Shown here one piece after another: positions 27,710 through 34,974 of a DNA stretch of 64,000 nucleotides. Origin of the DNA: Spirosoma sp. 48-14 (GTDB lineage: Bacteria; Bacteroidota; Bacteroidia; Cytophagales; Spirosomataceae); the NCBI RefSeq assembly GCF_001898575.1, contig NZ_MKUD01000063.1, forward strand, positions 385,215 to 449,214, written 5' to 3'. The notes beneath the pieces are model-generated. The model had not been told where the DNA came from. It did not search any database and worked only from the letters and a program-made list of their open reading frames with translations. How positions within the stretch are numbered: the first letter of the stretch is position 1; every line of letters begins with the position of its first letter. The position numbers were made by a program, and so were the translations under genes.

Positions 27710-29026
27710 ATGTATATCCGACGCATCGAAATCAATAATATACGCTCCATCGAGCATTTCGAAATGACGTTCCCCGAAGGTCAGGAAGCAGGCTGGCACG
27801 TGCTGATTGGCGACAATGGCTCGGGGAAATCGACTATTGTACGGTCAGTAGCGTTGGCGTTGTTGGATTATGAGGATATTAATGCTACTCGTCAGAGTTG
27901 GGATGATTGGTTAAAAAAAGGGCAACAGTCTGGCAATATTACTTTAGACGTATTACCCCAAAAAGGATATGATTCAGAAAGCCAAGAAGTTGTAACGAAT
28001 AAAGTTAGCCTAAAAAAGGATACTAATAAGCCCAGAAACGTTGAAATTGATGAGGTTATATTTCGAGGATCAATAAGGTATAACAGCATTAAAACTGAAT
28101 CCATTTCTGAGAATAATGCATCATATAAGCGACGTTATTTTATAAAGAATGCTTGGTTCTCTGCTGGTTATGGGCCTTTTCGTCGCTTTACAGGTGGTGA
28201 CCGCCAAAAGGAGGAAGATTTAGAAAGATCAAACCCAAAACTAGCAGCACATTTATCAATATTTGGGGAAGATATCGCTCTATCAGGCGCCTTAAATTAT
28301 TTAAGAGAGTTATATCTATCCAGCTTAGATACTGAAGATGAGAGTAGTAGTATAGCTGAATTTGAGTTAATGATGCTAAGTGACTTTATCAATCTTTCAA
28401 ACTTATTGCCTAATAACACAAAGATTGGGCGAGTAAATAAAGACGGAATTTTTCTAAAAGATGGGAATGGCACCACAATCTCAGTATTACAAATGAGTGA
28501 CGGGTATCGTTCTATACTCAGTTTAGTAATAGACTTATTACGCCATCTTATAAGGGCCTATAATATTCACGATATATATGATTCATATAATAAAGACAAG
28601 AAAATAGATTTCCCCGGCGTCGTTCTCATTGATGAAGTAGATGCGCACCTTCACCCTACCTGGCAAACGAATATTGGGCAGTGGTTCACCAAGTATTTTC
28701 CTAATCTTCAATTCATTGTCACCACACATAGTCCACTTGTTTGCCGGGCGGCTGAGAAAGGCTCAATCTGGCAACTACCTGCCCCCGGTAGCGATGATGT
28801 GGCGCATGAAATAACCGGCGACGAAAAGAAACGATTAGTCTATGGCAACGTGCTGGATGCCTACGGGACCAATGCATTTGGTGATAATGTAGCCCGCTCT
28901 GAATCGGCCAATGATAAGCTCAACGAACTGGCTGAACTCAACATTAAGTCGATTATGGGTCAGATTTCACCCGACGAAGAAAAACAGCTCAATGCGTTAC
29001 GCAGCATTTTCCCAACCCAAGGATGA
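27710..29026 (+). CDS. AAA family ATPase, Septu PtuA-like
   Basis: The 438-residue ABC/SMC-like ATPase has a Walker A motif GDNGSGKST near residues 34-42 and a Walker B motif VVLIDEVDAHLHP near residues 303-315. A switch histidine lies in TTHSPLVCRAAEKG near residue 337. The middle (residues about 80-290) is AT-rich in codon use, unlike its neighbours, which suggests horizontal acquisition. The stop overlaps the next gene by 4 bases (ATGA). An AAA15-type ATPase coupled to an HNH nuclease is the architecture of Septu (PtuA/PtuB), also found as retron effectors. No reverse transcriptase is nearby. The assignment to Septu is by architecture only. Confidence 0.8.
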   Translation: MYIRRIEINNIRSIEHFEMTFPEGQEAGWHVLIGDNGSGKSTIVRSVALALLDYEDINATRQSWDDWLKKGQQSGNITLDVLPQKGYDSESQEVVTNKVSLKKDTNKPRNVEIDEVIFRGSIRYNSIKTESISENNASYKRRYFIKNAWFSAGYGPFRRFTGGDRQKEEDLERSNPKLAAHLSIFGEDIALSGALNYLRELYLSSLDTEDESSSIAEFELMMLSDFINLSNLLPNNTKIGRVNKDGIFLKDGNGTTISVLQMSDGYRSILSLVIDLLRHLIRAYNIHDIYDSYNKDKKIDFPGVVLIDEVDAHLHPTWQTNIGQWFTKYFPNLQFIVTTHSPLVCRAAEKGSIWQLPAPGSDDVAHEITGDEKKRLVYGNVLDAYGTNAFGDNVARSESANDKLNELAELNIKSIMGQISPDEEKQLNALRSIFPTQG

Positions 29027-29859
29027 TTAAATTACCCGATGTTCAGCCTGAGCAGAAAGTACTGGATTCATTAACCGCGTTTCAGCAAGAAATCGATAGC
29101 CAGGATGGATTCGAAGCGCAATCTGCTCTGGCCAAAACCAGTTTTAGCAACCGAAACAGGAAAGGAAATGCAACATTTGATGAAGTCAAAAAAGCCTTGA
29201 CGCACATGTGCTCTGGGGCTCGTCGGTGTGTGTATTGCGAGGATTCCGTTGCCGATGAAGTTGAACATATTTACCCCAAAGATTTATACCCTGAAAAGGT
29301 CTTTGACTGGAATAACTATGTGTATGCTTGTGGCAATTGTAACGGGCCTAAAAACAATAAGTTTGCCGTTTTCCGGGCTGATTCGGGAGAATTTCAGGCG
29401 GTTAATCCACCTCGTGGTACTCTATCCATAAAGCCACCTAACGGTGAGGCCGTTCTCATTAATCCACGACTAGATGATCCGCTGGAGTTCTGTATGCTTG
29501 ATCTGAAGGACACGTTTAAGTTCGTCATTATCAAACCCAAAGGCTCTAAAGATTACCAACGAGCGGAATATACATTTGATGAAGTTTTACGATTAAATCA
29601 TGTCGAACGTGAATTTCTTCGACAGGCTCGACAGGAAGCCTATGGCGATTATAAGGCTCGCTTGCGTGAGTTTATACATCACCGTGATGTAGGAAGTCCA
29701 CAAGTACAACTCGATAGTATGATTGATCAGTTGAGAAAAAAGGGGCATCCTACCGTTTGGCGGGAAATGCAACGCTATCACAAACGAAAGATCCTTGCCC
29801 AAATTGACAAGGATCTCGATGATTTATTTGATCAGGCTCCTGAAGCGCTGAACTGGTAA
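29023..29859 (+). CDS. HNH endonuclease, Septu PtuB-like
   Basis: The 278-residue protein has a zinc-finger HNH core: CVYC near residues 69-72, EVEHIYPKDLYP (residues about 79-90, with the catalytic His after Glu), FDWNNYVYACGNCN (95-107) and PKNNKF. The spacing resembles the TIGR02646/PtuB-like HNH proteins. The start overlaps the ATPase stop, so translation is coupled and the two proteins probably form a complex. By analogy the ATPase would control DNA or tRNA cleavage during phage infection. It ends 25 bases from a convergent sulfatase gene. Confidence 0.8.
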   Translation: MIKLPDVQPEQKVLDSLTAFQQEIDSQDGFEAQSALAKTSFSNRNRKGNATFDEVKKALTHMCSGARRCVYCEDSVADEVEHIYPKDLYPEKVFDWNNYVYACGNCNGPKNNKFAVFRADSGEFQAVNPPRGTLSIKPPNGEAVLINPRLDDPLEFCMLDLKDTFKFVIIKPKGSKDYQRAEYTFDEVLRLNHVEREFLRQARQEAYGDYKARLREFIHHRDVGSPQVQLDSMIDQLRKKGHPTVWREMQRYHKRKILAQIDKDLDDLFDQAPEALNW

Positions 29860-31677: not shown

Positions 31678-32079
31678 CTAATAGTCCACGCGTTTGCGGC
31701 CCTCTTTCACGTCAGCTTTACGCTTCTTCTGGCTAATGCGTTCTTCAATTGAAGCTTTGGAAGGCTTGGTAGCTTTGCGGGGTTTGGGTGTTTCGAACGC
31801 TTTTTCAACCAGCCGATAAAACTTCCTGGTGACTTTCTCCTTATTGGCTAGCTGAGTGCGCTCGGTTTGATGGGTCAGGACCAGTTCGCCCTCTGTAGTT
31901 AGTTTAGTTGCTAACTTCTCTTCCAGGATAGCCCGCTCATCGTCGGAGAGCAACGTCGAGTGACGAACATTGAACCGCAACTCCGCTTTAGTGGCAACTT
32001 TATTTACATTCTGGCCTCCCGCACCCCCACTGCGGGCAAACTGGTATTGAATTTCGGGCTGTAATCGTGTGGCATCCAT
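31678..32079 (-). CDS. arfB: Alternative ribosome-rescue factor, class I peptide chain release factor-like peptidyl-tRNA hydrolase
   Basis: The protein of about 134 residues has the catalytic GGQ motif in ARSGGAGGQNVNKVATKAELRF near residues 15-36 and a very basic tail (RKATKPSK... KKRKADVKEGRKR) that would enter the empty mRNA channel of stalled ribosomes. It releases nascent peptides from non-stop complexes. Length and distance from start to GGQ match ArfB (YaeJ) when ATG 32079 (MDATRLQPE) is used; an ATG at 32115 is an alternative. It is a single gene, and a TACCTTGC sequence just before the start may be a promoter. Confidence 0.88.
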   Translation of the reverse strand: MDATRLQPEIQYQFARSGGAGGQNVNKVATKAELRFNVRHSTLLSDDERAILEEKLATKLTTEGELVLTHQTERTQLANKEKVTRKFYRLVEKAFETPKPRKATKPSKASIEERISQKKRKADVKEGRKRVDY

Positions 32080-32248
32080 ACCGGGCAAGGTAAGTAACAA
32101 ATCAGAAAAATCCATCCTTCCAGCGAACAATCCCCACACGCGTCAGTTCAATTTCAAAGCAAACCAATACCACGGGTGGAAGGCTCTAGCGAGTTAATAA
32201 ACCAAAAGCCTTTCGCACGAAACAACACTTACTCAACGAAACGAACCA

Positions 32249-32626
32249 ATGATTTCCAACGATCAAACTCAGATTGCGCTTATTGATGAAACCGTCAATA
32301 CGCTCGACGGAAACATCGACACTATCACCGCAACAGATGGGCTATCGCTCATCGATAAATGGCTGAACCGCCTGGAAGATGTCAGCGATGAAGCCACCGA
32401 CGATATTGCCGAAACACTCGAACGGCTTCGGCCTGAACTGGATGCTGCTCAACGGTACAACCGGATCGATAACCGCCAGATTGCGAATCTACTACAGGAC
32501 CTGATTGAGCAAACCCGTACCATTGCGACTACGGTTGAAGCCACCGCTGAGCAGGTAGAGCTTTCGCAATTGATTGCCCTTCTTGAAAATCTGCATCGCC
32601 AGGCAGTGAGCCATCTTGACAGGTAA
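32249..32626 (+). CDS. Small helical protein of unknown function, array member 1
   Basis: A 125-residue protein with no signal peptide, predicted all-helical. It belongs to a tandem set of five. The shared core is an N-terminal segment (TLDGNIDTITATDG) followed by LIDKWLNRL near residues 38-46, an acidic helix ending in LERLRPEL, then IANLLQDLIEQTRTIA and a C-terminal helix (LSQLIALLENLHRQA). It is the most divergent member. No known family was recognised. The first gene of the array is separated from the second by 173 bases, while the others are tightly spaced. Confidence 0.75.
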   Translation: MISNDQTQIALIDETVNTLDGNIDTITATDGLSLIDKWLNRLEDVSDEATDDIAETLERLRPELDAAQRYNRIDNRQIANLLQDLIEQTRTIATTVEATAEQVELSQLIALLENLHRQAVSHLDR

Positions 32627-32799
32627 ACGATGCTCAATCAGGATGTATTTCTTGCCTACCCCACTCATACAATACCCTTCTGGTGGACAAAAAACCCAAA
32701 CAAACACCCAGTTAGTAAGTTATTCTAAGATCAATCACCGACAGACTGGGAATTGTCGGCCTACATAGTCGCCCGGCCTGTTGCTAACGTTTAAGCAAT

Positions 32800-33159
32800 A
32801 TGGTTTCTCACGCATTGGATCAGCGGTTATTTGATCAAACAGATAGCCTTACTGACGAACACAATTCCATCGTAACGTCTACGCCCGGACGTGTCGATCT
32901 CATCGACGGTTGGCTGAAAGTGATTCAAGGTAATGAGCGAACAACACTCATCGAAGAAAAGCTTACGGCTCTACGGGACCAGCTCCAGCTGAATCATCCC
33001 GATCCAGACCAGGTACGGGCTTTACTGTTAGACCTTGCCGACTTAACCTCACTAATCGCTCAGGGTTCACACATGCAGGAACAAACCGCTTCCAAACTGG
33101 AAAATCTGGCTACCACACTCCGTAAACTAGCGGGTGTTCAGGTGGTCGAAACGCGATAA
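32800..33159 (+). CDS. Small helical protein of unknown function, array member 2
   Basis: A 119-residue protein. Core elements in order are SLTDEHNSIVTSTPGRVDLIDGWLKVIQGN (residues about 14-43; GRVDLIDGWL aligns with the same block of the other members), LRDQLQLNHPDPDQVRALLLDLADLT, and the C-terminal ASKLENLATTLRKLAG. No signal peptide or cysteine pair. A short hairpin (CCGACA/TGTCGG at 32738-32759) precedes it and may mark a separate promoter or processing site. Function unknown. Confidence 0.75.
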   Translation: MVSHALDQRLFDQTDSLTDEHNSIVTSTPGRVDLIDGWLKVIQGNERTTLIEEKLTALRDQLQLNHPDPDQVRALLLDLADLTSLIAQGSHMQEQTASKLENLATTLRKLAGVQVVETR

Positions 33160-33181
33160 ACTCCTGTTAATCATTTTCACT

Positions 33182-33529
33182 ATGCTAGGAACGAATCAAT
33201 GGGAAGCGAGTATGCTCGATAATACGCTCGCTATATTCCGTACTAATAGCCAGCCTATCTCTCCCGACCAGGGTATTACGCTGATTGATGGTTGGTTACA
33301 AGCCTTACAAGGTGACCCAAATATGGAGCAGCTTACAGGGCAACTTACTGAGTTGCGTACGGCTTTGCAGGATACTTCGCCCAATACAAAGTACATACGA
33401 CAGCTAATGGCTAGCCTGGCCGACAAAGCGCAGGCTATAGCCGAAGATGAAAACTCCGAAGGCACCTGGACGGGTGGTTTGGAAAGCCTGTCTAAAATTT
33501 TACGCCATTATGGCGCCCCTACTAGTTAA
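33182..33529 (+). CDS. Small helical protein of unknown function, array member 3
   Basis: A 115-residue protein from ATG 33182 (MLGTNQWEAS), 22 bases after member 2. The longer frame from 33134 would overlap member 2. It shows the clearest array signature: ISPDQGITLIDGWLQALQGD near residues 30-49, followed by LTELRTALQDTSPNTKYIRQLMASLADKAQAIA and GLESLSKILRHYG. The pattern ITxDQGxxLIDGW is shared with member 4. Function unknown. Confidence 0.75.
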   Translation: MLGTNQWEASMLDNTLAIFRTNSQPISPDQGITLIDGWLQALQGDPNMEQLTGQLTELRTALQDTSPNTKYIRQLMASLADKAQAIAEDENSEGTWTGGLESLSKILRHYGAPTS

Positions 33530-33570
33530 CGACAATTACAACCCCATCACCACCATAAACAAGACTACCT

Positions 33571-33921
33571 ATGGAAGCAACAGAAACAACACTCGAACAC
33601 CGGATGCTGATTGATACATTGGGTGCATTCGGCGATGGAACACACGCTACCATTACAGCTGACCAGGGAATTTTACTACTCGAAGGCTGGCGAAATGCTC
33701 TTCCCGGCAATGTCGGCACGGAACGCATTCTGGGGGAAATTACGGCCTTGCGCGACCACTTAAGATCAGGTCATGTGGATGGTGAAAAAGTACGCCAATG
33801 GCTTTTGAACATGTCCAGCCACATGATGATCCTCTCGCATGAGCCTTCAGTCGACAGAGATACTGTGCCCCAGCTCCAACAACTAGCAACAGTGCTCCGC
33901 AATTTTACTAACCAGATCTGA
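33571..33921 (+). CDS. Small helical protein of unknown function, array member 4
   Basis: A 116-residue protein, 41 bases after member 3. ITADQGILLLEGWRNALPGN (residues about 28-47) aligns with member 3; then ITALRDHLRSGHVDGEKVRQWLLNMSSHM and a C-terminal VPQLQQLATVLRNFTNQI. It ends one base before the start of member 5, so the two are probably translated from one mRNA. Function unknown. Confidence 0.75.
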   Translation: MEATETTLEHRMLIDTLGAFGDGTHATITADQGILLLEGWRNALPGNVGTERILGEITALRDHLRSGHVDGEKVRQWLLNMSSHMMILSHEPSVDRDTVPQLQQLATVLRNFTNQI

Positions 33922-33922
33922 T

Positions 33923-34273
33923 ATGTTTACGCACGAAGATGCCTCCGAACTACTTGATTCGACCATGACCGTTCTGGAAAGCGAATCGGGCTCCACCACG
34001 CCCCAGGATGGCTCACCTATTATTGACCAATGGCTGACTCAACTGCATCAGGCGGACAATGCGGGCCCGATTGCCCAAACGCTTGAACAGGTGAAAGAAC
34101 AACTACAGATGGATTCCATAAATAGTGATGAACTCTGTCGGTTATTGAACACGCTGGCCACTCAAACATCGGAGTTTAGTACAATGATGGGTTCAGAAGG
34201 CGACATGGCCACGCGGTTGGAGGCTCTTTCGGCGGGACTAAAACTACTGGCAGGGCAGGTCAATCATGCTTAA
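33923..34273 (+). CDS. Small helical protein of unknown function, array member 5
   Basis: A 116-residue protein starting one base after the TGA of member 4. It keeps STTPQDGSPIIDQWLTQLHQ near residues 25-44, the acidic LEQVKEQLQMDSINSDELCRLLNTLATQT segment and the C-terminal ATRLEALSAGLKLLAGQ. It is followed by a perfect 11-bp hairpin, which would end the array transcript. Function unknown. Confidence 0.75.
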   Translation: MFTHEDASELLDSTMTVLESESGSTTPQDGSPIIDQWLTQLHQADNAGPIAQTLEQVKEQLQMDSINSDELCRLLNTLATQTSEFSTMMGSEGDMATRLEALSAGLKLLAGQVNHA

Positions 34274-34284
34274 GGTTGGTTAAA

Positions 34285-34314
34285 CACTCGTCCGCCATTG
34301 TTCGCGGACGAGTG
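34285..34314. terminator. Hairpin between convergent genes
   Basis: CACTCGTCCGC (34285-34295) pairs perfectly with GCGGACGAGTG (34304-34314), with an 8-base loop. It lies between the end of the five-gene array and a convergent minus-strand gene. There is no strong T-run. Confidence 0.6.
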
Positions 34315-34332
34315 AAACCATTAGCAGCAGGG

Positions 34333-34974
34333 TTAATTGTCTGAAACCGCTTTTGCTAACGAATACCATGCCTGATTCAGGGTCTTTTGAATTTTCTGCC
34401 AGTCGGCCTCCGTCATTGCCTCGCCCCGCTGATCCCGAAACAACATGGCGTCGGTACGTAACCGGCCGTATTCGGCACAACGCTCAACCGGAATCTGGTA
34501 CAGATTAGCTACCGTCTGTGCCTGAAGGCTGGCCCATTCAACAGGCGGATGTTGCTCCCGCTCCCGACGGATAATCCACCATTCCAGTTCATGGCGGGCC
34601 GCTTGATTTACATTAAATGGCTGTTTACTGATAGCGCTAATAGCTCCATAAAACGCTTCCAGGTCAGGCAGGGCGCGGTTGTAATCGGCCCTGTTTTTTC
34701 CATCTTTAAATAGAAACGCAGCTTTGGCCGCGTGATAGGCAATAACAAACGACCGCCAGAATGGAGCGTCTACCTGCCTTCGCACCAACTCGGCCGACTG
34801 CCAGAATAGCTTCAAAGGCTTCCGTTTGTAGTAGGATCGCCACATATCGGTATCGAGTCGGGCCACGTCGGCCGGATCAAAATGACGCAGATCAACCTTA
34901 TGGGGCCTATATACATCAACGAGTATCCAACCTATTAACAGAGCCAGTACGACCTGTGCTATTCGTTTCATCAC
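34333..34974 (-). CDS. Membrane-anchored protein of unknown function
   Basis: The 213-residue protein has an N-terminal hydrophobic anchor (residues about 5-21: AQVVLALLIGWILVDVY) and an otherwise soluble helical body rich in Arg, Trp and Tyr, for example DTDMWRSYYKRKPLKLFW near residue 42 and ARHELEWWIIRREREQHP near residue 127. I recognise no named domain. It would face the periplasm. Convergent with the paralogue array and downstream of the FG-GAP gene, with which it may or may not be co-transcribed. Confidence 0.65.
   Translation of the reverse strand: MMKRIAQVVLALLIGWILVDVYRPHKVDLRHFDPADVARLDTDMWRSYYKRKPLKLFWQSAELVRRQVDAPFWRSFVIAYHAAKAAFLFKDGKNRADYNRALPDLEAFYGAISAISKQPFNVNQAARHELEWWIIRREREQHPPVEWASLQAQTVANLYQIPVERCAEYGRLRTDAMLFRDQRGEAMTEADWQKIQKTLNQAWYSLAKAVSDN

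Follow-up and report, generated by a model that had tools for sequence, protein, structure and literature searches.

Proteins of the WXG100/EsxA type are helical proteins of about 100 residues with a conserved Trp, and their W-x-G motif lies between two helices. Csp proteins bind copper via many Cys residues in their core, and phasins occur with PHA synthase. The EcsC protein is probably membrane-associated, and DUF2382 (YsnF-like), DUF2383 and DUF937-OmpA proteins have general-stress or envelope roles. We compared these systems with an array of five small genes in the window, that is, the whole 64,000-nucleotide stretch of Spirosoma sp. 48-14 DNA that was analysed. The five genes were shown to be the remainder, under strong purifying selection, of an ordered array that can hold as many as ten distinct paralogs.

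The array genes and their homology

The array and the features next to it are the following:

31678..32139, minus strand: RF-1 domain protein, ArfB-like (PF00472, E 5e-15), divergent neighbour of the array
32249..32626, plus strand: array member 1, clade D, ORF of 125 aa
32627..32799, plus strand: gap between members D and G, the place of clade E and in some relatives also of F
32800..33159, plus strand: array member 2, clade G, ORF of 119 aa
33182..33529, plus strand: array member 3, clade H, ORF of 115 aa, containing the stretch EGTWTGGLESLSKILR
33571..33921, plus strand: array member 4, clade I, ORF of 116 aa
33923..34273, plus strand: array member 5, clade J, ORF of 116 aa
34285..34314, no strand assigned: hairpin, supported by its folding z-score, separating the array from the convergent minus-strand gene at 34333-34974

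The first-pass annotation had described five paralogous plus-strand ORFs of 115-125 residues in tandem; these were present and could be aligned over their whole length. The gaps between them measured 173, 22, 41 and 1 bases. Member 3 has an alternative upstream GTG start at 33134, which would give a protein of 131 aa, but the ATG at 33182 is the start consistent with the rest of the family. The end-to-end alignment of the five window proteins revealed seven invariant columns (D13, G31, W38, L64, L105, L108 and L112). Identity between the paralogs was 22-31%, so the strong divergence noted in the first pass holds between paralogs, but not within each orthologous line.

Helix composition alone earns some score, as profile A4 (which omits the short fragment L092:3999-4196, one of 133 members found) matched designed coiled coils in the PDB with E-values down to 9e-8; a leave-one-clade-out and shuffle test was therefore performed. 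Against a profile lacking their own clade, the five window proteins scored 72.3-93.2 bits. The best shuffled copy per protein reached 11.2-17.8 bits (2,000 copies made per protein, 1,889-1,986 of them scored), and reversed sequences reached 1.6-14.2 bits. Judged by these scores, the similarity of the five proteins is true homology, and chance low-complexity helix composition, which had been named as a possible source of the likeness, is excluded.

The family has no name in the libraries searched (Pfam, NCBIfam, PHROG and PADLOC). Among the matches listed, none of these claimed any of the five proteins, in agreement with the initial impression of an unrecognised family, nor did they place each ORF in a different known family. 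Among the Pfam-A matches listed, none reached the curated cut-off of its family, either for the five window proteins or for ten distant members. The 45 members of profile A2 gave weak and scattered Pfam matches with a best E of 4e-4 in the 25 families listed of 61, judged beyond the first member by E-value alone. In NCBIfam, the first A2 member remained far under the cut-offs, and the other 44 matched scattered unrelated models with a best E of 8e-4 in the 25 families listed of 39, judged by E-values alone. PHROG and PADLOC returned only stray weak rows for the family (best PADLOC E 0.0018). We found no description of the array family in the literature searched, which spanned part of the journals and dealt with the Spirosoma proteome, EcsC, DUF2382/DUF937 and paralogous tandem or helical families; PMC12675980, in the portion available, names no such protein.

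The hairpin that had been noted at the array end exists. It comprises an 11-bp perfect stem with an MFE of -26.3 kcal/mol and z-scores of -6.7 on the plus strand and -7.1 on the minus strand. It is flanked by convergent genes, has no U-run on the plus strand and was not among the calls of the terminator scan. It is possibly a two-way terminator, a label that we infer because of the missing plus-strand U-run and the position between convergent genes. A sigma-70 scan of 31900-34600 detected 3 promoter-like sites versus 3.3 expected, no excess over chance, and thus showed nothing on an operon.

The divergent ArfB-like RF-1 domain gene was found beside the array in 19 of 19 mapped array loci, all of the window's genus, and was absent from the array's side in the Fibrella array L067. 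We also observed a Septu-type defence pair at 27710-29859 of the window (plus strand), in which a PtuA-matching AAA ATPase (PADLOC E 3e-149) overlaps a PtuB-matching HNH protein (E 8e-102). Among 20 further stretches compared, of 14-17 kb each, none had a clustered relative of the pair, which may be a recent insertion.

Clades, gene order and distribution

A FastTree tree of 137 members, all short proteins, was midpoint-rooted. Its clades hold one copy per locus, and the five window genes fall into five separate clades: D (17 members, support 0.917), G (14 members, 0.98), H (24 members, 0.957), I (19 members, 0.978) and J (22 members, 0.998). Clade H has its own conserved stretch. Clade C, with 3 members and a support of just 0.334, is provisional, and L111:3511-3840 belongs to no clade.

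Naming the members A-J, we found the gene order to be identical in 24 of 24 loci, and the same order across species suggests that each paralog has its own job. Complete ten-member arrays (A-J) were present in S. lacussanchae (L093) and S. sordidisoli (L096), and the window's genome retains D, G, H, I and J. Members D, E, F, H and J extend to the loci of Fibrella and Rudanella, from which G and I are missing. H-I-J occurs alone in L091, L094, L105 (a short contig) and L106; in S. telluris and S. arboris (L091 and L094) it is kept at the array locus. In genomes G020 and G022, a B-D-E block lies at a separate place with its order intact (L081 and L082), and the arfB-side locus of G020 (L022) contains H-I-J. 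The E of L082 and the members of L022 were assigned by sequence outside the tree, and the E of G020 by its tail. Clade H is present in every one of the 23 named loci by construction, as these loci were found with clade H.

Clade E comprises the long member, with a Ser/Gly-rich tail. In ten loci (L090, L092, L093, L095-L098 and L101-L103), this tail is long and of low complexity with conserved islands, namely STVGG... and a C-terminal GGRSQY, which is GGRSS in Fibrisoma. The window has lost E, and no remnant of it was found in the gap 32627-32799, where tblastn with the E protein of G004 gave only a chance match (E 7.1); window positions 32687-32799 matched the G004 bases that immediately precede G (94% over 114 columns). 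In S. panaciterrae, L089:5159-5437 (plus strand) is a member E minus its helical domain. This in-frame loss left an open frame of 92 aa with a few start residues followed by a Ser/Thr/Asp-rich tail ending in NGRSQY.

The dN/dS ratios of orthologs among the window, G004 and S. panaciterrae were 0.04-0.14. In particular, clade D gave 0.14 against G004 and 0.10 against S. panaciterrae, clade G gave 0.05 and 0.07, and clade I gave 0.04. The clades hold one copy per locus and the ratios are low; the members are therefore distinct paralogs under purifying selection. The proposals that the set is fast-evolving and that repeated duplication is a recent process were not borne out.

The closest named relatives of the window belong to Spirosoma. 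The clade H search yielded 23 loci, mostly from Spirosoma (panaciterrae, validum, telluris, endophyticum and others), with the remainder from Fibrisoma, Fibrella, Rudanella, two further lineages and one record labelled Flavobacterium sp. The array of that record (SUN052, L109) is D-E-F-H-J, the same as in Rudanella L110; perhaps the assembly is misnamed or contaminated, or the array was transferred. Conserved tandem copies, which the first-pass annotation had proposed to look for, thus occur in other genomes. Relatives of member 2 were found in 25 of 39 genomes, comprising 25 of 25 from the window's genus and 0 of 14 others. Profile A2 matched 81 of 222 genomes of the family-rank taxon, including 36 from the window's genus; this genus is not represented among the 20 non-matching genomes listed, and 121 more are unlisted. 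Searches with A2 in the order and in the phylum gave matches in 32 of 194 and 6 of 345 genomes, respectively. The broader profile A5 matched 11 of 395 genomes of the phylum and 6 of 146 in another class of the phylum, that of G620. These tallies retain weak partial matches in G291 and G323 (order), in G623 (A2, phylum) and in G520, G518 and G663 (A5, phylum). Genomes carry up to ten members, and the window's genome has just five, two extra rows (E 0.04 and 0.33) being noise.

An origin from a mobile element was considered and rejected: clade H had no relative in the viral contigs, plasmids or phages searched, and two solo relatives had none in the plasmids searched.

Structure, neighbours and candidate functions

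The AlphaFold2 model of H contained five helices with a mean pLDDT of 82.3 and a pTM of 0.77, and that of J contained five helices with a mean pLDDT of 77.7 and a pTM of 0.68. We predict that the array proteins fold into acidic bundles of five helices, nearly devoid of Cys, whose helix 2 carries an invariant Trp. The five window proteins have a pI of 4.1-5.4 and are hydrophilic (GRAVY -0.24 to -0.47). Cys was found in 2 of the 137 members, never more than one each. Trp38 is the sole residue invariant across all 137, and it was equally invariant in an alignment of 34 that included distant solo members. Foldseek returned nothing at E 0.001 or better for H or J against the PDB, or for H against viral models. 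The VIA-align rows for both had Z-scores of 9.8 or lower, inside the stated helical-bundle background, so no fold family is claimed or excluded from VIA-align.

Two-domain A-B fusion proteins of 240-253 aa were found away from the array in three genomes (L066, L080 and L086), with the first domain in clade A (support 0.912) and the second in clade B (support 0.999). Two of the three have common neighbours, named by eye as glucosamine-phosphate-deaminase-like and oxidoreductase genes, and may represent one event. Four solo copies in Spirosoma (three in G024 and one in G009) lie beside a DUF937-OmpA-type and a membrane-type protein, and those of G024 are also accompanied by DUF2382-type proteins. 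The three G024 clusters (L026, L078 and L079) are similar, each with a membrane-type protein, the solo member, one or more DUF2382-type proteins and a DUF937-OmpA-type protein; Pfam was run on L079 alone, where the membrane-type protein had no Pfam match. The solo relative L068 adjoins a DUF2383 gene. Many solo copies in g12 genomes have ordinary neighbours by eye, such as a ribosomal protein gene and TrmD-like genes, and the N-termini of L069, L071, L127 and L131 read by eye as lipoprotein-like.

In the class of G620, an EcsC-family gene was located directly upstream of one to three members in six of six family-bearing genomes (L070, L123-L126 and L129), and a PF12787 search of the class found all six places, five over the cut-off and one (G786) under it. 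EcsC is common in this class (73 of 146 genomes). Five loci of divergent EcsC relatives had no adjoining family member, a sixth was cut by a contig end and G742 was left out. Within the order, EcsC was found in 24 of 32 genomes with the array family versus 22 of 162 without it. By genus, the counts were 9 of 11 versus 11 of 82 when g86 and g97 (G291 and G323) were left out, and 9 of 13 versus 11 of 80 with all 13 genera. The Fisher p values of 1e-11 by genome and 7e-6 by genus are both inflated by kinship. EcsC was missing from eight family-bearing genomes of the order, namely G235, G244, G259, G277, G291, G302, G315 and G323. The order searches for the family, EcsC and PHA synthase covered 194 genomes each with shared handles and were taken as the same draw, most non-matches being unlisted. 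In the 23 Cytophagales EcsC loci inspected, which represent 20 places, no gene of the family lay nearby (flanks of 1.5 kb for 18 loci and about 8 kb for 5). The link to EcsC is thus not a general one.

None of these clues to function (the A-B fusions, the neighbours of the solo copies and EcsC) is decisive. The best explanation, possible rather than probable in our estimate, is that the array encodes non-catalytic helical modules with neighbour-specific pairing that form a modular cytosolic assembly or act as adaptors in stress or envelope functions. The products would be stable helical modules without catalysis, which would associate with particular neighbours, at least in the case of A and B. 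The paired modules would build a cytosolic helical assembly or adaptor set, used in general stress or in upkeep of the cell envelope; in other Bacteroidota, the same module occurs alone, with a lipoprotein-like signal or beside an EcsC-type protein. Because members were gained or lost by lineage, such an assembly would have a modular make-up rather than a fixed set of ten parts. The assembly, the stress role and the membrane link of the array products are what we infer. The heteromeric-complex subunits suggested in the first pass would be favoured by the A-B fusions and the fixed order, while the optional loss of members counts against a strict complex.

The main rival, which we regard as credible if somewhat doubtful, holds that the paralogs are sub-functionalised adaptors, each acting by itself, as monomer or homo-oligomer, with a partner of its own elsewhere in the cell, and that the order reflects shared transcription only. 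The one-by-one loss of members, the solo relatives standing alone with varied neighbours and the separate conserved stretch of clade H all agree with it. However, the A-B fusion in three genomes and the order retained in displaced blocks are more easily explained by contact between neighbours.

A stricter form of assembly is improbable. In this form, up to ten distinct five-helix subunits would form polymers or layers in the cytosol, arranged as their genes are, and an EcsC-type partner would anchor them at the membrane; the result would be a protective scaffold that can be induced. The order of D, E, F, H and J would predate the split of Spirosoma, Fibrella and Rudanella, and the E tail with its GRSQY end would connect or target the structure.

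There is little probability that the proteins coat storage granules or lipid surfaces, as amphipathic bundles of the phasin or apolipoprotein type would by opening on such a surface. The bundles are Leu/Ala-rich, the EcsC neighbour is probably membrane-associated, and three distant members match Apolipoprotein below threshold (E 0.007-0.03; 14.6-16.5 bits, the cut-off being 90). Against this, the window proteins are hydrophilic, and PHA synthase (PF07167), found in 27 of 194 genomes of the order, mostly as partial matches, occurs in only 1 of the 32 family-bearing ones. That single genome (G291) has a weak partial family match, and the window's genome has no PHA synthase; a phasin function is thus unlikely.

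Array-multiplied immunity proteins or antitoxins against peptide toxins, another proposal of the first pass, are very unlikely. The proteins are small helical bundles, and Tsi6, PisI and EntA-im appear among the low-ranking fold matches. However, the lines follow the species in a fixed order with the low dN/dS given above, the PADLOC rows are stray, the phage, plasmid and viral records searched contain no copy, and inspection by eye of the neighbours of the 19 mapped array loci revealed no toxin. Csp chains ranked near the top of the Foldseek lists for both models, with no E-value better than 0.27, and recurred in VIA-align at Z-scores not above 8.0; copper storage by metal-binding four-helix bundles of this type is refuted by the lack of Cys in the family.

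The locus presents an unnamed family that expanded into an ordered set of paralogs, kept distinct under strong selection, and that reaches at least one other class of the phylum. Ordered, distinct paralogs seem unusual for small helical proteins without a recognised motif, and they raise the testable question of whether assembly among the paralogs follows the order of the genes. Entry points are offered by the invariant Trp, the A-B fusions and the EcsC neighbour, and the alignments can be used as the seed of a Pfam entry.

Comparison with known systems

The small up-down helical bundles Csp1/Csp3 (e.g. 5fig and 6ei0) and PA2107 (3kav) recurred for both models. In VIA-align, H matched Csp with a Z-score of 8.0 (5fig_C, 82 aligned residues, 2.4 Å) and J with 7.1 (5arm, 90 aligned residues, 3.3 Å), inside the helical-bundle background. 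Csp and PA2107 were not among the PDB sequence matches of the family profile, and the array proteins lack a Cys core.

WXG100/EsxA matched the family profile weakly (E 0.088). The array models have five helices, and in the window members no Gly stands two positions after the invariant Trp, its contexts being WLN, WLK, WLQ, WRN and WLT; without a W-x-G motif, membership of WXG100 is unlikely.

The DUF2382, DUF2383 and DUF937-OmpA genes adjoin some solo relatives in Spirosoma and one other genus, a link by guilt by association; unlike those solo relatives, the main array adjoins the RF-1 domain gene. The EcsC family (PF12787) is a different protein. It is not adjacent to the array family in the Spirosoma loci examined, but it is a gene neighbour of the family in the class of G620 and is enriched in the family-bearing genomes of the order.
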